Below the pieces are notes generated by a model that did not search any database, was not told the origin of the DNA, and worked only from the letters and a program-made list of their open reading frames with translations. This document shows, piece by piece, positions 7,118-46,031 of a stretch of DNA of 49,108 nt; position 1 is the stretch's first letter, and every line of letters starts with the position of its first letter. Source of the DNA: Dysgonamonadaceae bacterium (GTDB lineage: Bacteria; Bacteroidota; Bacteroidia; Bacteroidales; Azobacteroidaceae); assembly GCA_031275735.1 (NCBI GenBank), contig JAISOJ010000106.1:1-49108 (forward strand). Direction: 5' to 3'. The translations under genes were made by a program, and so were the position numbers.

Positions 7118-7177
7118 TGAAACAAAAAAAGAAATATTGCGTATAAATACCCAAAAGGTTAAATAATGGAGAATGAA

Positions 7178-7471
7178 CACGTCATTGCGAGGAGCGCAGC
7201 GACGAAAGCAAAACGTCATTGCGAACGAAGTGAAGCAAACCAGAAAAAATAAATGAATATAAAACGGCAAATAAAACAATGGTCAATATCTGGATTGCTT
7301 CCTGCTCCGCTTACGCTCCGCAGTTCGCAATGACGAATAAAAAGCAACACGTCATTGCGAGTGGAGCGAAGCAAACCAGAGTAATGATAATGGATAATGA
7401 AAATAATAAACGTAAGTCTGGATTGCTTCCCGCTTCGGGCAAAGCCCTCGCGGTTCGCAGTTCGCAATGAC
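7178..7471. repeat. Cluster of REP-like dispersed repeats (GTCATTGCGAG family)
   Basis: At least four copies of the dispersed element are present, in alternating orientation. Forward copies are at about 7180-7243 (two half units) and 7349-7380, beginning CGTCATTGCGAG. Reverse copies are at about 7290-7336 and 7411-7471, ending TTCGCAATGACGA. Adjacent opposite copies can pair as long hairpins. The stretch AACCAGAGTAATGATAATGG at about 7374 recurs upstream of the second DUF6261 gene. The rest of the 411-bp gap (7118-7528) is A-rich spacer with no gene that I can support. Confidence 0.85.
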
Positions 7472-7528
7472 GAACAAAAATCAAACAAATAATAAAACAA
7501 ACAAACAAATAAATAAAAATAAAAAAAT

Positions 7529-8497
7529 ATGAATACAATTTTAAGAATACCTATTTTAGACAGGTACAACAGCGCCGATCATTTGGCATTTCACGAACAG
7601 TCAATCAAAATTTGCGACAGGAACGCCGATATAATAAATGCGCCCGGGTTGCTCGAAACCTACCATTTTGTGATAGAACAGGAACAGCACGTGTTCAAAT
7701 GGACGCGGCGGAGCGAATTTACGGCGAAAAAAGCCGACGCCGACCACGCCCGCGACAGCACGCTGTCGGGAATAGCCGCCATTGTAAAAACCGACATGAA
7801 GCACTTCGACCCGTCGATACGCGACAATGCCGTGCATGTGTACAACCTGCTGGTCGCCTACGGCAACATTCCGAAAGCCGACTATGACGCGGAAACCGCA
7901 AATATCGACAGCCTCATAACGCGGCTTATGGGAGACGATTATTTTCCCGCAGTGCAAAACCTGAACCTTGTGGAATGGGTGAATGAACTGCACGAACAGA
8001 ACGAACTTTTCAAAAGTTATGTGGACGACGTGGCGCAGGAAAAGTTAGTAAAACCCGATATTACGCCGGCAGCCGCCCGCCGCAATACCGACGCGGCGTT
8101 GAGGCAAATCACCAACCGCGTAAGCTCGCTGGTTATACTCAACGGGCAGGCGGATTATGCGGCGTTTATCGCCGAGTTTAACGTGATCGCAGACCATTTC
8201 AATAATGTGGTGCACGAACACTACGGCAGGCTGCACGCCCGAATAGACATTACGCCGGCGGCGATTGACAGCATTCCCGAGCAGCCCTGCACGGGCAAGC
8301 CGGTGTTTGTAATCCCCGGATTGACCCTTGCGGTCGAAAAGGAAGGCAAACAAACAATCCTGCACCCCGTGTTCAGCGAAGATTTTACCGTTGCCTACAA
8401 AAATAATATCGAGCCCGGCACGGCAACCCTTGTGATTAAAGGCATGGGGAAATATACCGGCGAAATCACGACAACGTTTAATATCGTTCACGTATGA
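7529..8497 (+). CDS. DUF6261-family protein with C-terminal Ig-like extension, copy 1
   Basis: The protein has 322 residues and no signal peptide. Residues 1 to about 235 are largely helical and match the DUF6261 pattern known from Bacteroidetes: HFDPSIRDNA, YGNIPKADYDAETANI, a WVNEL-type helix and a LVILNGQADYAAFIAEFN helix. Residues from about 245 to 322 form a small beta domain (TGKPVFVIP, then FTVAYKNNIEPGTATL and YTGEITTTFNI) of the kind repeated in bacterial surface Ig-like modules. No function is known for the family. A close paralogue lies at 15624-16598 between uxuA and the SDR gene. The stop codon overlaps the GH67 start by 4 bp (ATGA), so the two are probably translationally coupled. 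The A-rich leader just before the ATG supports this start. Confidence 0.8.
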   Translation: MNTILRIPILDRYNSADHLAFHEQSIKICDRNADIINAPGLLETYHFVIEQEQHVFKWTRRSEFTAKKADADHARDSTLSGIAAIVKTDMKHFDPSIRDNAVHVYNLLVAYGNIPKADYDAETANIDSLITRLMGDDYFPAVQNLNLVEWVNELHEQNELFKSYVDDVAQEKLVKPDITPAAARRNTDAALRQITNRVSSLVILNGQADYAAFIAEFNVIADHFNNVVHEHYGRLHARIDITPAAIDSIPEQPCTGKPVFVIPGLTLAVEKEGKQTILHPVFSEDFTVAYKNNIEPGTATLVIKGMGKYTGEITTTFNIVHV

Positions 8498-13521: not shown

Positions 13522-13749
13522 GGGCGAACCTGCGTGTTCGCCCGTCATTGCGAGCGGAGCAACAAAAGCAAAACGTCATTGCAGGTAGGGGCAAAACATG
13601 TTTTGCCCGAACAGCAACAAAAGCAAAACGTCATTGCGAGCGGAGCGAAGCAATCCGGAATAATGGAGAATGGAGAATGGAGAATGGAGAATGAAATTAA
13701 TAACAGTCAATATCCGGATTAACTCCGTTGAGCTCCGCTTCGCTTTCGC
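13522..13749. repeat. REP-like repeats, two palindromes and (GGAGAAT)4
   Basis: This covers most of the 340-bp gap before uxuA. A hairpin at 13522-13543 pairs GGGCGAAC with GTTCGCCC. A perfect 20-bp palindrome at 13589-13608 (GGGCAAAACATGTTTTGCCC) recurs with one mismatch at 15037-15056. Forward GTCATTGCGAG units lie near 13543, 13574 and 13630. A (GGAGAAT)4 run is at 13665-13692. A reverse unit (tccggattaactccg...) follows. Just upstream, 13480-13515 repeats TTAGTGATTAGTGG-like words. I see no gene. Confidence 0.85.
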
Positions 13750-15022: not shown

Positions 15023-15198
15023 GTCATTGCCGGTAGGGGCAAAACATTTTTTGCCCGAACAGCGACGAAATCAACACGTCATTGCGAGGAATGAAATGAC
15101 GAAGCAAACCAGAGTAATGATAATGGATAATAAAATAATAAACGTAAGTCCGAATTGCTTCCTGCTTCGGGCAAAGCCCTCGCAGTTCGCAATGACGA
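15023..15198. repeat. REP-like repeats upstream of the second DUF6261 gene
   Basis: A forward GTCATTGC unit is joined to the near-palindrome at 15037-15056 (one mismatch from the perfect one at 13589), then a second forward unit (cacgtcattgcgaggaatg) and, at about 15155-15198, a reverse unit ending TTCGCAATGACGAA. The words AACCAGAGTAATGATAATGG and GCTTCGGGCAAAGCCCTCGC are shared with the repeat upstream of the first DUF6261 gene (7370-7471). No gene is seen here. Confidence 0.85.
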
Positions 15199-15212
15199 AA
15201 AAAAGCAATCCT

Positions 15213-15565
15213 GCTGCAACGCAGCAAGTCGTAATGCAACCTGCATTCATATCTGCTGCAACGCAGCAAGTCGCAATGCAATCTGCATTCATATTTGCTG
15301 CAACGCAGCAAGTCGCAATGCAATCTGCATTCATATTTGCTGCAACGCAGCAAGTCGCAATGCAACCTGCATTTATATTTGCTGCAACGCAGCAAGTCGC
15401 AATGCAACCTGCGTTTATATTTGCTGCAACGCAGCAAGTCGCAATGCAACCTGCATTCATATTTGCTGCAACGCAGCAAGTCGCAATGCAACCTGCGTTC
15501 ATATCTGCTGCAACGCAGCAAGTCGCAATGCAACCTGCATTTATATCTGCTGCAACGCAGCAAGA
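15213..15565. repeat. 42-bp tandem array, 8 units plus a partial ninth
   Basis: Units start at 15213, 15255, 15297, 15339, 15381, 15423, 15465, 15507 and 15549, an exact 42-bp step; the last is cut after about 17 bp. Each unit holds two small inverted repeats: GCTGC-AAC-GCAGC and AATGCA-AYC-TGCATT. Units differ at only a few positions (ACC or ATC in the second loop, CATTC, CGTTC or CATTT after it, TATTT or TATCT at the end). The changes mostly leave the stems paired. The array has no spacers and is not a CRISPR. Several frames are open because 42 is a multiple of three. It ends 59 bp before the DUF6261 copy-2 start. Confidence 0.95.
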
Positions 15566-15623: not shown

Positions 15624-16598
15624 ATGAAAAAAATACTGCACAGCCCCGACGAAGTTCGGCTCAACAATGCCGATCATGTGGAATTTCACAAACAGTCGTA
15701 TGAAATATGCGACCGGAATGCCGCCGCTATTGACGCGCCCGCGCTGCTCGCCGGCTACCATGAAAAGGTAGCGCAGGAAGAATATATCTTTAACTGGATA
15801 CGCGGGAGCGAATATACTAAAAAGAAAGCCGAAGCCGACCGCGCCCGCAACAGGATATTTACGGGAATAAGAAGTATCGTGCGGGCAAACCTGAAACATT
15901 TCGACCCGGCAATCCGCGACAACGCAACGCATATACAGAACCTGCTCGGAAACTACGGCAACATTACGCGCGCCGGCTATGACTCCGAAACGGCGGATAT
16001 CGACAGCCTCGCCGCCCGCCTCCGCAGCGCCGACTATCTTCCAGCCGTGCAAAACCTCGGGCTTGCCCCGTGGATAACGGAACTGGAAAACCAGAATACG
16101 CTGTTCAAATCTTATGTGGACGACAGGACGCAGGAACAGCTCGAAAAACCGGCTGTCAGCCAGCGCGCCGCCCGCCGTGAAACCGCCGCAGCACTGCGCG
16201 CTGTGACCGACCGCGTAAAATCGCTGGTTATACTCAACGGGCAGGCGGGTTATGCCGCATTTATCGCCGAATTTAATGTGCTGGTAAACCATTATAACGC
16301 GCTGGTGCATGAACATTACGGCAGGTTGCACGCCAAAACCGACATTGCGCCGGCGGATATTGACGAAATACCCGCGCAGCCCTTTACCGGCAAGCCGGTG
16401 TACGTGATTCCGACAGTAAAAATGGTTAAAAAAGACAGGGACGGCAATGAAACGGCGGTTGAACTCCTGTTTGGCGAAGAATTTACGGTGTCATACAAAA
16501 ATAACGTGGAACCCGGCACGGCTACCCTCTTTATTAAAGGTATCGGGAAATATGCCGGCAAAATCGTAACTACATTTAATATAAATAACAGTAACTAA
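15624..16598 (+). CDS. DUF6261-family protein with C-terminal Ig-like extension, copy 2
   Basis: The protein has 324 residues. I place the start at ATG 15624 (MKKILHSPDEVRLNNADHVE), which aligns with the first residues of the paralogue at 7529 and follows an A-rich leader. The frame is also open back to 14997 through the repeats, but that part is low-complexity. It shares with copy 1 the order CDRNA, HFDPAIRDNA, YGNITRAGYDSETADIDSL, LVILNGQAGYAAFIAEFN, EHYGRLHAKTDIAPADID, and the C-terminal beta module (FTVSYKNNVEPGTATLFI, YAGKIVTTFNI). No signal peptide is visible. Its place between uxuA and the SDR gene makes co-transcription with hexuronate catabolism likely, yet the function is unknown. 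Confidence 0.8.
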   Translation: MKKILHSPDEVRLNNADHVEFHKQSYEICDRNAAAIDAPALLAGYHEKVAQEEYIFNWIRGSEYTKKKAEADRARNRIFTGIRSIVRANLKHFDPAIRDNATHIQNLLGNYGNITRAGYDSETADIDSLAARLRSADYLPAVQNLGLAPWITELENQNTLFKSYVDDRTQEQLEKPAVSQRAARRETAAALRAVTDRVKSLVILNGQAGYAAFIAEFNVLVNHYNALVHEHYGRLHAKTDIAPADIDEIPAQPFTGKPVYVIPTVKMVKKDRDGNETAVELLFGEEFTVSYKNNVEPGTATLFIKGIGKYAGKIVTTFNINNSN

Positions 16599-30218: not shown

Positions 30219-30258
30219 TGTGTCATTTTTTGAGCAGTTTTCTTAAACTTTTGAGCAA

Positions 30259-30531
30259 ATTTGCTTGGAAGTCGGAGTAATTTGCTTGGAAGTCGGAGTA
30301 ATTTGCTTGGAAGTCGGAGCAATTTGCTTGGAAGTCGGAGTAATTTGCTTGGAAGTCGGAGTAATTTGCTTGGAAGTCGGAGTAATTTGCTTGGAAGTCG
30401 GAGTAATTTGCTTGGAAGTCGGAGCAATTTGCTTGGAAGTCGGAGCAATTTGCTTGGAAGTCGGAGTAATTTGCTCGGAAGTCGGAGCAATTTGCTTGGA
30501 AGTCGGAGTAATTTGCTCGGAAGTCGGAGCA
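30259..30531. repeat. Perfect-period 13 x 21-bp tandem array
   Basis: Thirteen units of exactly 21 bp run without gaps. The unit reads ATTTGCTTGG followed by AAGTCGGAGTA. Variation is limited to two sites: T or C at the second-last base (C in units 3, 8, 9, 11 and 13) and TTGG or TCGG in the middle (TCGG in units 11 and 13). There are no spacers, so it is not a CRISPR. Both strands have open frames because 21 is divisible by three; the predicted 7-residue peptides (ANYSDFQ, LLRLPSK, LEVGVIC) have no credible start or family. It lies between the divergent amn and MATE genes. Confidence 0.97.
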
Positions 30532-30627: not shown

Positions 30628-30660
30628 ATTGATATTGTTTTTTCAAATTCATTACATTTG
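30628..30660 (+). promoter_or_regulatory. Bacteroidetes-type promoter of the MATE gene
   Basis: ATTG at 30628-30631 (the -33 box, consensus TTTG) is followed after 21 bp by TACATTTG at 30653-30660, a full match to the -7 consensus TAnnTTTG. The MATE start codon is 27 bp further on. Confidence 0.6.
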
Positions 30661-34585: not shown

Positions 34586-34802
34586 TGTCATTGCGAGGAA
34601 TGAAATGACGCGCTACGCCCCTGTTTTGTCCGTCATTGCGAAGCGGTGAAGCAATCCATGTGTCATTGTCTTTATTCATTTTCTCTGGTTTGCTTCGTCG
34701 CTACGCTCCTCGCAATGACGTGTTGCTTCGTCATTTCATTCCTCGCAATGACGTATTGCATTTTGCATCCTGTGCAGTCATTGCGAAAGCAGCGAAACAA
34801 CC
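34586..34802. repeat. Cluster of REP-like dispersed repeats
   Basis: Forward units (atgtcattgcgaggaatg at 34588; cgtcattgcgaagcgg at 34631) are followed by reverse units (tggtttgcttcgtcgctacg...cgcaatgacg at about 34687-34720 and tcgtcatttcattcctcgcaatgacg at about 34728-34753) and another forward piece (cagtcattgcgaaagc). Opposing units could form hairpins. The remaining gap to 35100 is AT-rich with TTGTCAAAA words at 34929 and 35052 and the inverse TTTTGACAAAA at 35084, which could bind a regulator. Confidence 0.8.
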
Positions 34803-35108
34803 TGATATATTTGCTGTTTATTAATTTTCAACTGACAGTTTTCAATTCATATTTACTGATTTAAATTTCTAATTTAACAGCAAATATTGTTTTTTATAAT
34901 GCAAATAACAGTATGTATAACTGTTCACTTGTCAAAATTTGCAATTTTTAACATTTGCATCTTTATATAAGCATCGTTTTTTTGAAAAATAAGCATGTTT
35001 CATTTATATTAAAAGTCAATAGAAATAAGCAATAGCGAATATCGTTAAAATTTGTCAAAATTTATTTTGTAAAGAATTGCATTTTTTGACAAAATAAAGA
35101 CTGTTTTA

Positions 35109-35140
35109 TTAGGTGGTACATTTTGTCTAAAATACCTTTG
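35109..35140 (+). promoter_or_regulatory. Bacteroidetes-type promoter
   Basis: TACCTTTG at 35133-35140 fully matches the -7 consensus TAnnTTTG, with TTAG at 35109-35112 (3 of 4 to TTTG) 20 bp upstream. The expected start of transcription is near 35147. It would read through the degenerate 21-bp array into the small gene at 35478 and the type IX-related genes. Confidence 0.5.
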
Positions 35141-35281
35141 TACGGCAATATCGAAATATTTTATATGACAAATTTTACAGTAAATACGGCAACAGGCACA
35201 GCAGGCAAAAACCCAGCAAATACACTATATACAGGATATATTAAGAATTTTTTTAATACATTTTTTTTCGTTAAATGCGTG

Positions 35282-35407
35282 AATTTCGGGGAAACATACG
35301 GAAGTTTCGGTGGTACAAATGAATGTTTCGGAGATTCATACGAAAACTTCGCAGGAACAAACGAAGATTTTACAGGGTATATGGGAACTTCGTGTGAAAA
35401 ATACGAA
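35282..35407. repeat. Degenerate array with 21-bp period, about 6 units
   Basis: Six units start at 35282, 35303, 35324, 35345, 35366 and 35387. They share TTCGG or TTCGC near base 4 and, in most, TACGAA/AATGAA-like ends; all have lost identity but kept the 21-bp step. On the + strand one frame (35165-35533) reads 7-residue motifs of the form SFGGTNE, CFGDSYE, NFAGTNE. The other strand reads FVPPK and YVSPK. I think this is a decayed repeat in a leader and not a gene, though a low-complexity peptide from ATG 35165 cannot be excluded. Confidence 0.6.
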
Positions 35408-35477
35408 ACGAACATGCAATACAGAAACGGAAAATTATTAAACGCTATAATTATAAATTTAAACACACAATACAATT

Positions 35478-35711
35478 ATGAGTACTCAAGATTTTATACC
35501 GCGAGCCGACAACAAGTTTCTCGTCTGGCTTAAAACAATGGTTGCTTACCTGCTTACAAAAGCTGCCGAATGGAACATTCCGCAGGCAGATGTAGATGAG
35601 ATGGAAACGCTGACAGCCGGTTTTGATACCGCGCTCGAAACGGCAGAAAACCCGTTAACGCGCACAAAAGTGGCTATAATAGTAATAAACAAATTAATAA
35701 ATAAAAAATAA
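35478..35711 (+). CDS. Small Bacteroidetes protein, probably a truncated N-terminal module
   Basis: The protein has 77 residues: MSTQDFIPRADNKFLVWLKT opens it, followed by a helical segment with IPQADVDEMETLTAGFD and LTRTKVAI. This resembles the first 70 or so residues of a common Bacteroidetes family of hypothetical proteins that starts M.xxDFIP and runs to 200 residues or more with a C-terminal beta domain. Here the frame stops right after RTKVAIIVINKLINKK, so it may be truncated or a stand-alone short version. It lies downstream of the degenerate 21-bp array and 23 bp before the T9SS protein gene. The function is unknown. Confidence 0.6.
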   Translation: MSTQDFIPRADNKFLVWLKTMVAYLLTKAAEWNIPQADVDEMETLTAGFDTALETAENPLTRTKVAIIVINKLINKK

Positions 35712-35734
35712 AACTTTTAATCTAAATAAAAAAA

Positions 35735-37099
35735 ATGAAAAAATTTATAATTTTAATTTTTATGATGGCAGTAACGGCTGCCACTGTAAAATCACAATGC
35801 GTCTCTTTCTCCACGCCGCCAATAACCGGGGCAAGCGACGTATGTTACGGGGAAACTGTTACGCTAACGGTTGCCCAAGGCTATGACTTCTATGAATGGA
35901 CGCGAATACTCCCTTCTTTACAGGCAGTTACCACTGCGGACAATAAAGTGCAGGTAACAGAGCCGGGCGTATATTCTTATAAAGTGCGTGTAAAGGATAT
36001 TTCCATGGATACTCCCGGCGGCTGCTGGAGCGATTACAGCACTGAAGTGAGTTTCGCAATTTATGCCCTGCCTGCCACACCTGTAACAGATGGAGCGGCA
36101 AACGTATGTTCAGGCAATACGGTTACGCTTACAACAGCATCAGCAGGCATGGCACGCTACCGCTGGCAGGAAACAATAAGCGGCAACATACACACCGGCG
36201 CGGAAAATACAATATTGCAAACTGCCGTCGGTAAATACACATACCGCGTACAGGTACGCAATGCCGAAGGCTGCTGGAGCGACTACAGCGGTGCGGCAAC
36301 AGGTTACGTTCATCCTCTGCCCGAACGTCCATCAATAGAACCTGCCGGAACTGTGGCAATATGCGAAAACGGCAATATTACGCTGACGGCAACAGACGGT
36401 TTGGCAAAATATGTATGGTATCTCAACGGAATAGAAATAAGTAGCGGAATATCCGGCACTTACACGGCAACTCAGGCTGGCAGTTATACAGTTAAGACAG
36501 AAACCGTTTACGGCTGCGAAAGCGATATAAGCGATGCAACAACGGTTGAAACAGTACCATATCCTGCCAAACCTGTAATTACAGCGGCAGGCACGGACAA
36601 TGGTCTGGTATGGCGCAAAACAGGAATGGGAATAGTATTTGAAGTAGTAAACAGGCTTGATACTCTCGTATATCAATGGTATCACAACAGCAGCCTAATA
36701 TCTGGCGGACAGGGCGAAGCCCTGCATCTTACGGGATTGCGCCTGACGGATGCAGGTCTGTATTCGGTAACGGCAACAACGCAAAAAGCCAGGTGCTCAA
36801 CGGTGTCCGACAATGTGGAACTGATAATGAGAGAAGAAATATACATACACAATCTGATAACTCCTAACAATGATGGACAAAATGACAATTTTCATATCAG
36901 AGATTTGGAAATATATCCGCACAACGAACTGACAGTTATCAACCGCTGGGGAAATCAGGTATTCAAAGCCAAAGATTATGTAAACGGAACATGGAACGGA
37001 GCAAACTTGCCCGACGGCGTGTATTTCTACAGGTTGAAGCTGATTGAATTTAATGGTTATACCGAAGAAAAAACAGGTTATTTCCATCTTAAACGCTAA
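35735..37099 (+). CDS. Secreted Ig/PKD-like protein with T9SS type B sorting domain
   Basis: The protein has 454 residues and a signal peptide (MKKFIILIFMMAVTAATVKS). The body is a row of three or four beta-sandwich domains of about 80-90 residues; repeated words are CYGETVTLT, CSGNTVTLT, CENGNITLT and GCWSDYS. The last 85 residues are the gliding-motility C-terminal domain (CHU_C): LITPNNDGQNDNFHI, then INRWGNQVF and WNGANLPDGVYFYRL. This domain sends cargo through the type IX secretion system and keeps it attached or released at the surface. PorP/SprF and OmpA-type genes follow, the usual trio for type B cargo. The ligand is unknown. Confidence 0.9.
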   Translation: MKKFIILIFMMAVTAATVKSQCVSFSTPPITGASDVCYGETVTLTVAQGYDFYEWTRILPSLQAVTTADNKVQVTEPGVYSYKVRVKDISMDTPGGCWSDYSTEVSFAIYALPATPVTDGAANVCSGNTVTLTTASAGMARYRWQETISGNIHTGAENTILQTAVGKYTYRVQVRNAEGCWSDYSGAATGYVHPLPERPSIEPAGTVAICENGNITLTATDGLAKYVWYLNGIEISSGISGTYTATQAGSYTVKTETVYGCESDISDATTVETVPYPAKPVITAAGTDNGLVWRKTGMGIVFEVVNRLDTLVYQWYHNSSLISGGQGEALHLTGLRLTDAGLYSVTATTQKARCSTVSDNVELIMREEIYIHNLITPNNDGQNDNFHIRDLEIYPHNELTVINRWGNQVFKAKDYVNGTWNGANLPDGVYFYRLKLIEFNGYTEEKTGYFHLKR

Positions 37100-37197: not shown

Positions 37198-37256
37198 CGA
37201 CTCTTTACAAAAATTACATTAAAAATAGATATATGAATCAAATAAAAAAAGAAGAT

Positions 37257-38216
37257 ATGAAAAAGATATTTTTATTTGCAGGAATACTTGTTTTATGCAG
37301 TATTTTCAAGACCGAAGCGCAACAGGCGCCCCAGTTTTCGCAATATATGTTCAACGGCATATATATCAATCCGGCTTATGCAGGATACAAAGATGTGTTT
37401 TACGGACACATGGTTTATCGCAAGCAGTGGGCAGGTATTAAGGGAACTCCGCAAACAACAATGCTGAGCGTGGACGGAAATTTATCGAAAGGCTCAAATA
37501 TTGGCTTTGTTTATACAAACGACAGGATAGGAGAAACATATTCCAACAGTTTTATGGTGGATTATGCCTATCGCATTAAGATAATGGAAGGCGGCAGATT
37601 GAGTTTCGGTCTGTCGGCAGGAATGGTTCATCACGGATTTGACCGTTCAAAGTTTATCGATCCGGAAACAGGAGAAATAGACCCCGAAGCGCAGAATGCA
37701 AAAAACGTATGGAAACCAGGATTTGATGCAGGTTTATATTTCGACATGAAAAACTTTTATGCGGGATTTTCAATAATGGGACTGGTTGCAAACAAAGCCG
37801 ATTCGGAATCGTTTCAGGTAATTCGCACCGATGCAAACTATTTTCTTACATTCGGAGGTATTATACCTTTAAACAAATCGCTTAAACTTTTGCCATCGGC
37901 GCTGTTAAAAACAGATTTGGAGAATCCTATGACCTTTGATATAAACGCTTTGCTGATGATAAACGATAGACTTGCCGTAGGCGGAAGTTACCGTAAAGGC
38001 GTATTATGGTTTTCGGATGTAGAAGAAAACACAATGCAAAAAGATGCCATATCGCTTATTGCCGAAGTGTATGTAACCGAAAAAATACGCTTGGGCATGG
38101 CTTACGATTTCAATTTGAATAAAGTAATGTCGGGAGCAAATGGAAGTTTTGAAGTATCATTGGGATATTATTTTGTAAAAGCCAAAAAGAAATACGTAAC
38201 GCCGAGATACTTTTAA
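37257..38216 (+). CDS. PorP/SprF-family type IX secretion system membrane protein
   Basis: The protein has 319 residues from ATG 37257, chosen because it opens a clean signal peptide (MKKIFLFAGILVLCSIFKTEAQ); an ATG eight codons earlier only adds a charged tail. The mature start QQAPQFSQYMFNGIYINPAYAG is the hallmark of PorP/SprF. The rest alternates beta strands and ends in aromatic-rich strands (FEVSLGYYFVKAKKKYVTPRYF), as in outer-membrane barrels. Members help particular CHU_C cargo to reach the surface; the cargo gene just upstream is the likely partner. Confidence 0.93.
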   Translation: MKKIFLFAGILVLCSIFKTEAQQAPQFSQYMFNGIYINPAYAGYKDVFYGHMVYRKQWAGIKGTPQTTMLSVDGNLSKGSNIGFVYTNDRIGETYSNSFMVDYAYRIKIMEGGRLSFGLSAGMVHHGFDRSKFIDPETGEIDPEAQNAKNVWKPGFDAGLYFDMKNFYAGFSIMGLVANKADSESFQVIRTDANYFLTFGGIIPLNKSLKLLPSALLKTDLENPMTFDINALLMINDRLAVGGSYRKGVLWFSDVEENTMQKDAISLIAEVYVTEKIRLGMAYDFNLNKVMSGANGSFEVSLGYYFVKAKKKYVTPRYF

Positions 38217-45227: not shown

Positions 45228-46031
45228 ATGAATACAACCGTAAAAAAAACAGATTGGGACAAAGATGGTTTAAATGGCAAAGTGAAAAGCATAAGAGAAA
45301 TTCCATATTATGCAGAAAAAAAATTCGGAGTAAATGCCACATATAATATTTTTGATAATAAAAAATGGCGTAACACATTAAAAAAATATGACGACAGAGG
45401 CAACCTGACAGAATTGCATCATTATTATTCATCCGGTAGCCTTTACTCTAAATGGATTTACAAATACGACGACAATGGAAATCTGACAAAGATGACCGAA
45501 TATAATTCAAAAAACTTGGTAAAAAGCTACGAAACTTACAAATATAATGCCAAAGGCAACAGAGTAAAAGATACGGTTTATGCTATCGACAACTTGCCAT
45601 ATAAATGTACTTACAAATACAACAGCAAAGGCAACCGCACGGAGATGAAAAGATACAACCCAGACGGTACCTTATCAAGAAAGGAAACTTACATATACGA
45701 CAACAGCGGCAACCTGACAGAACAGAACTGGTACAGTGCAAAAGGCAACCTGCAAACGAAATGTACATACAAATATGACAACAGAGGCAGGCTGGCAGAA
45801 TGGTGCGAACACAAACAGTCGGGCAAGATAAGACAGAAACTTACCTGCGAATATGACGACAGAGGCAATCTTGCAGAATTGAAAGAATACAAACAGTTCG
45901 GCAAAACAGTTGTTAAACGGACTTACCAATACAGGCTCGATGATAAAGGCAACTGGATTGAACAGACAGAATATAAAGATGACGAAGCAGAAACAATTAC
46001 CGAACGAACAATAGAATATTACGATAATTGA
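45228..46031 (+). CDS. YD-type (RHS-like) repeat protein
   Basis: The 267-residue protein has no signal peptide. After a 50-residue head (LNGKVKSIREIPYYAEKKFG) it consists of eight repeats of about 26 residues, each of the form KYDDRGNLTEL...Y....Y (KYDDNGNLTK, KYNAKGNRVK, KYNSKGNRTE, IYDNSGNLTE, KYDNRGRLAE, EYDDRGNLAE). This is the YD/RHS-type repeat seen in short Bacteroidetes proteins, often present in several copies per genome; without the RHS core it is not a toxin carrier. The role is unknown. It lies after the lysine operon and before the decayed element. Confidence 0.75.
   Translation: MNTTVKKTDWDKDGLNGKVKSIREIPYYAEKKFGVNATYNIFDNKKWRNTLKKYDDRGNLTELHHYYSSGSLYSKWIYKYDDNGNLTKMTEYNSKNLVKSYETYKYNAKGNRVKDTVYAIDNLPYKCTYKYNSKGNRTEMKRYNPDGTLSRKETYIYDNSGNLTEQNWYSAKGNLQTKCTYKYDNRGRLAEWCEHKQSGKIRQKLTCEYDDRGNLAELKEYKQFGKTVVKRTYQYRLDDKGNWIEQTEYKDDEAETITERTIEYYDN

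Follow-up and report, generated by a model that had tools for sequence, protein, structure and literature searches.

The window analyzed in this work, that is, the whole stretch of 49,108 nucleotides of contig JAISOJ010000106.1 from a Dysgonamonadaceae bacterium (assembly GCA_031275735.1), harbors a diverged tandem array with a 21-bp step. This array ends 70 bp upstream of a short truncated gene and is preceded by a promoter box of the Bacteroidota type (TAnnTTTG class), for which no good -33 element was seen. The gene belongs to a family that we call DYIP (= FIP), a name coined in this analysis after the start of most of its members. The initial annotation had also noted a 42-bp array and a 13 x 21-bp array in the same window, and the TRF analysis revealed that both are real. 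The first of them precedes a gene of the DUF6261 family, of which the window contains a second copy. The coordinates of all these features are reported in Table 1. As to the surroundings of the truncated gene, the gene directly downstream of it (35735-37099) shows, by eye, a gliding-motility-type C-terminal sequence and is followed by a PorP/SprF-like gene (37233-38216).

Table 1. Arrays, genes and promoter box discussed in the text (positions refer to the window).
Feature	Position	Strand	Description and basis
DUF6261 gene, second copy	7529..8497	+	322 aa; no array upstream
42-bp array	15212..15564	+	8.4 copies; each unit contains two inverted repeats, centers 21 nt apart; TRF
DUF6261 (PF19775) gene	15624..16598	+	324 aa; Pfam 137 bits vs. 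a cut-off of 27
21-bp array	30258..30529	.	13 copies, dyad unit; between divergent genes, no adjacent DYIP/DUF6261 gene
Bacteroidota-type -7 promoter box	35133..35140	+	TACCTTTG; upstream of the 35282 array
Diverged 21-bp tandem array	35282..35407	+	four clear and two weak units; lag identity, Markov null
Truncated DYIP/FIP family gene	35478..35711	+	77 aa; profile E 1e-17 over positions 1-68

The exact 21-bp step that had been claimed for the region 35282-35407 is confirmed by our data, which place it beyond a Markov null. Indeed, the self-identity of the region is 0.55, 0.58 and 0.56 at lags 21, 42 and 63, respectively, the other lags giving mostly values of 0.13-0.35, although lags 54 and 41 reach 0.46 and 0.42, respectively; the composite score over the three lags reaches its maximum (0.563) exactly at position 35282. 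The best composite score was 0.44 at period 21 in 400 kb of Markov sequence with the local composition, 0.50 in the same null when any period between 10 and 41 was admitted, and 0.52 in the window outside the array. The core of the array is represented by four units (35282-35365), the fifth and the sixth being weak, and the units embed partial inverted repeats, such as CTTCG...CGAAG. The array is missing from the TRF list obtained at score 30 because its units are too diverged.

The product of the truncated gene gives nothing above the Pfam cut-off, and no NCBIfam match was found for the full-length DYIP homologs. It retains about 64 residues of the helical N-terminal module of the family, including the D-[FY]-[IVL]-P start, the W near position 17 and the P-x-T-R-T motif, and its gene also exhibits the 21-bp array located between promoter box and start codon that marks the family. 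The C-terminal fn3-like domain is absent, the next gene beginning at 35735, and the intact relatives are about 204-240 aa long. The predicted structure of DYIP proteins comprises a helical N-terminal module and an fn3-like C-terminal domain, the latter being recognized as fn3 by Foldseek. VIA-align retrieved generic helical-bundle matches only, and no solved relative was found at E 0.001. Since the gene has lost its C-terminal domain and the array is short and diverged (its best lag-21 identity is 0.64 vs. 0.75-1.0 in many intact loci), this copy of the array has probably decayed; this is not certain, however, because several intact genes carry arrays that are equally diverged.

The analysis of the DYIP homologs revealed an upstream array with a 21-bp period in all of the 28 loci retrieved by a first search. 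After the addition of termite-gut MAGs and of genomes belonging to other Bacteroidota classes, which brought the set to 57 loci (paralogous loci among them not being independent samples), the strongest upstream lag was 21 or a multiple of it in 54; among 97 control segments, lag 21 was the strongest in 4. The three exceptions are a truncated gene (L074) and two similar paralogs of one genome (L081 and L084, 204 aa), in which the array is absent. Arrays with this step are shared by distant genomes that belong to other classes of the phylum, and each branch of the family possesses a private unit sequence. The step is conserved while the sequence of the units varies freely between loci, and the gene-plus-array unit is widespread but sparse in Bacteroidota. 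In DYIP loci the array lies at a median distance of 72 bp from the ATG. Gene-associated arrays consist of about 4-17 units, with a step of either 21 bp or 41-43 bp, and we are confident that the basic anatomy is that of a gene family accompanied by a 21- or 42-bp array embedded in a probable leader. Searches of open-licence PMC papers gave no description of such arrays. Arrays of 21 bp are likewise present in a sister family, whose proteins start with DWMP and share the fn3-like end of DYIP (L213, 8700-8988; L210, 354-611).

The second family associated with arrays is DUF6261, for which the Pfam entry (PF19775) gives no function and Foldseek found nothing below E 0.001. The product of gene 15624-16598 is composed of an all-helical N-terminal part and a C-terminal beta domain. 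The homologs of this protein are preceded by arrays of 41, 42 or 43 bp, and in most of the distant loci 41-42 is the top lag; no paper describing these upstream arrays was found among the open-licence PMC papers. Arrays of 41-43 bp are found also where the protein is devoid of the C-terminal domain (L034, L041, L047 and others), so that the step follows the helical part. Moreover, the DYIP helical module can be aligned with the helical part of DUF6261, the scores being 21.8 for the first half and 26.5 for the second half; column shuffles averaged 9.5-9.9, none of the 100 reaching either observed score, and reversed-profile controls gave 10.1 and 11.5. The comparison of the whole families by hhalign yielded a probability of 9.5, and the two halves of DUF6261, compared directly, scored 15.9 vs. 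15.7 of the reversed control, a difference that is not significant. Given this lack of significance, the presence of two modules in DUF6261 is something that we infer: one module (DYIP) would go with 21 bp and, apparently, two modules (DUF6261) with 42 bp. Dispersed CGTCATTGCGAG...GCGAAGCAATCC repeats are also present in the window (7176-7480, 13543-13646, 15073-15200 and 34636-34800), one cluster of which is located in front of the DUF6261 gene without array (7529) and looks like a substitute for the array.

According to the initial annotation, the three arrays were unrelated, and a single mechanism might generate 21-bp duplications throughout this genome; neither idea agrees with our findings. 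Two of the arrays are located directly upstream of members of two families with consistent arrays, the third (30258) being without such a gene. Moreover, long 21/42-bp arrays are confined to the window within the 1.35 Mb covered by the TRF survey (about 55% of the genome, some contigs being masked and the assembly being 76% complete); one further 21-bp match proved to be a harmonic of a 7-bp repeat, and matches with a score of 1.0 at all periods corresponded to masked N contigs. In a relative that is rich in these genes (G036), 21- and 42-bp arrays represent 10 of the 16 tandem arrays listed in a 239-kb sample. It follows that the peak of unit length at 21/42 bp tracks the gene families. The fact that some arrays have no intact gene beside them (30258 of the window, and L211 and L222 of a relative) might suggest that 21-bp arrays are untied to particular genes and arise by chance or through a genome-wide duplication bias. 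Nevertheless, the arrays track two gene families and control segments are without them. In addition, the array of L222 (at about 14250) precedes the truncated start of a gene (MNNKDWMP*), and that of L211 (7392-7483), which has no family gene, is accompanied by a leader resembling the one of L026, so that both loci look like stages of gene loss. We consider the probability of chance or duplication bias as very low.

A further question concerns the force that maintains the 21-bp step, for which either helical phase or the preservation of the reading frame (seven codons) had been invoked. Something like the former is probably correct, while the latter has to be abandoned. Indeed, DUF6261 units are often 41 or 43 bp long and break the frame; the variable sites of DYIP arrays show no concentration in a codon phase (0.437 vs. 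0.460 expected), and the sense and antisense strands have equal best-frame synonymous fractions (0.448 and 0.454, respectively). If the arrays were coding, the one in the window would belong to a heptapeptide-repeat ORF, and one plus-strand frame (35123-35533, reading NFGETYGSFGGTNE...) is actually open across it. Open frames through the arrays are also slightly commoner than in shuffles (2.56 vs. 2.24), on both strands, an excess that we attribute to composition; 7 of the 54 arrays have no open frame at all, and only one is fused to the gene. On these grounds the idea of a coding heptapeptide repeat was rejected, and we regard it as very unlikely.

The full-match promoter reported just upstream of the array was not recovered, since a sigma-70 scan of the region 35000-35760 gave no plus-strand match. 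The related proposal that the array is transcribed as leader is probably right, on the basis of the TAnnTTTG boxes that are found upstream of the arrays as a class. The 150 bp that precede the array contain such a box in 18 of 50 DYIP loci (4.8 ± 2.1 expected) and in 10 of 22 DUF6261 loci (1.8 ± 1.2 expected), and a box is found between array and start codon in 2 of the former loci and 6 of the latter. As the boxes are placed upstream, the arrays of both families are probably transcribed as leaders. They are probably not translated.

Inverted repeats tend to occur in the units at a rate of one per ~21 bp; no clear dyad is present in the arrays of L027 and L062. When the folding of the consensus unit was compared with that of circular dinucleotide shuffles, it surpassed the median in 46 of 54 DYIP arrays (z averaging -1.04) and in 21 of 23 DUF6261 arrays (z averaging -2.05). 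DUF6261 units often contain two inverted repeats, centered about 21 nt from each other; in those with two hairpins, the spacing falls within 1.5 nt of half a unit in 11 of 15 cases vs. 165 of 426 shuffles. Compensatory changes in DUF6261 arrays number 13 vs. 6.5 ± 1.8 in shuffles, with paired cells above all 300 shuffles; the excess within DYIP arrays is weak (36 vs. 28.6 ± 3.9). Folding predictions, confined to nested structures, gave hairpins, and Rfam returned no match at the gathering score in the window or in eight loci.

These features might be interpreted at the RNA level, assuming, by analogy with the arrays of type III toxin-antitoxin systems, that the transcribed leader folds into tandem 21-nt hairpins which bind the encoded protein or serve as a guide or an inhibitory RNA. 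The location of the arrays downstream of promoter boxes, the folding of the units and the covariation in DUF6261 arrays would all be in favor of this possibility. However, the strand that folds better is the sense one in 34 arrays and the antisense one in 43 (p 0.31), whereas for the tRNAs of this and of a related genome, used as control, the sense strand is favored in 12 of 14 cases. The lack of a sense-strand advantage, unlike what is observed for tRNAs, favors dyads at the DNA level over RNA structure, and selection for sense-RNA hairpins was discarded, both strands folding alike with a positive control. We therefore lean towards dyads that would act at the DNA level, one per two helical turns.

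The comparison with type III systems (ToxIN, CptIN, TenpIN) points in both directions. As in those systems, short tandem repeats, which are probably transcribed and made up of structured units, immediately precede a small gene; furthermore, the unit sequences of type III arrays likewise differ greatly between loci (PMC4627078), which supports the RNA interpretation. On the other hand, the type III repeat is a single 36- or 45-nt pseudoknot, whereas here the step is 21 bp, or 41-43 bp with two inverted repeats. Moreover, a terminator before the gene is usually missing here, a terminator-like site between array and ATG being present in 4 of 54 DYIP loci (shuffle expectation 0.4), and the folding shows no strand bias. 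The encoded protein is predicted to be helical plus fn3/Ig-like and has no toxin match; in particular, neither Pfam nor PADLOC gave a match to the ToxN/CptN/TenpN endoribonuclease family, and the predicted models are helical with a beta sandwich. Lastly, a search of viral contigs gave no exact match for three unit sequences, which argues, weakly, against a guide-like array. In our opinion the RNA interpretation ranks next after the DNA-level one and is unlikely.

The freedom of the unit sequence is particularly evident among close paralogs. DYIP proteins sharing 80-93% identity carry unrelated units, and in the pair L093/L086 the first 100 residues are almost identical while the units are without recognizable likeness. 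The finding of near-identical modules with unrelated units makes a sequence-specific recognition of the array by the module unlikely, and this candidate was set aside. In close paralog pairs, the density of protein differences is highest over the first dozen residues and decreases with the distance from the array, as expected if gene conversion homogenized the coding part and left the array side private. In genome G036, four loci (L020, L021, L023 and L024) have nearly identical gene bodies with the first ~15 residues private, and L024 differs also in its array; the pattern is suggestive of a recombination or gene conversion event within the gene.

The lack of sequence constraint among close paralogs, together with the steady position upstream of the ATG, might also be explained without any protein partner, by assuming that the array is a sequence-neutral 5' leader spacer or attenuator, or a supercoil-sensitive cruciform, whose 21-bp unit was inherited and kept by tandem turnover. 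This would nevertheless leave unexplained both the difference between 21 and 41-43 bp in the two families, with its apparent correspondence to the modules, and the persistence of the arrays across classes despite the complete turnover of their sequence. We rank this explanation below the RNA one, as improbable.

The reading that we tentatively put forward is, instead, that of a DNA platform. The dyads would be kept by selection at a spacing of two helical turns (21 bp) or of four (about 42 bp), and the protein with the helical module would bind the array of its own gene in cis, recognizing the shape and the phase of the dyads and not their sequence; such binding might serve for setting its own expression or for assembling on the array. 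A phased-dyad platform of this kind, bound by its own protein, may be suggested from the sequence data as one possibility worth stating first. A broader proposal, on which we are more doubtful, is that of a new type of cis system, in which each module would cover two turns of the leader dyad array, the period would scale with the number of modules (21 bp for one, 42 bp for two), and recognition through shape and phase would leave the unit sequences free to turn over and to differ in every paralog.

Two other known systems deserve a comparison. The iterons and phased-operator arrays of replication and partition systems are direct repeats of about 21 bp, spaced by two turns and located beside a gene. 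The proteins studied here, in contrast, have no Pfam or NCBIfam match to replication or partition proteins, and near-identical proteins carry unrelated unit sequences; no plasmid or phage match was found for the DYIP protein, which was also absent from viral contigs, and DUF6261 had no match in plasmids. CRISPR and similar arrays are transcribed and consist of short, regularly spaced, partly palindromic units. Differently from them, the repeats described here are not separated by spacers, the neighboring gene is not a known CRISPR/defence protein, and the three units mentioned above have no exact viral match.

These data provide a DUF without known function and an unnamed family with a common genomic signature across several Bacteroidota classes, and the period of the array represents a handle for finding further family members. 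If it is true that the modules count helical turns on hypervariable arrays, this would be an unfamiliar mode of protein-nucleic acid recognition, and type III antitoxin arrays and CRISPR would be joined by a further, new class of arrays encoded in cis.

As far as the remaining repeats of the window are concerned, the minus-strand gene beside the 30258 array resembles, by eye, an AMP nucleosidase gene starting at about 30015, and the MATE-like gene on the other side possesses a TACATTTG box of its own, located downstream of the array at 30653. TRF also detected a 78-bp direct repeat, present in 1.9 copies, at 45754-45904.
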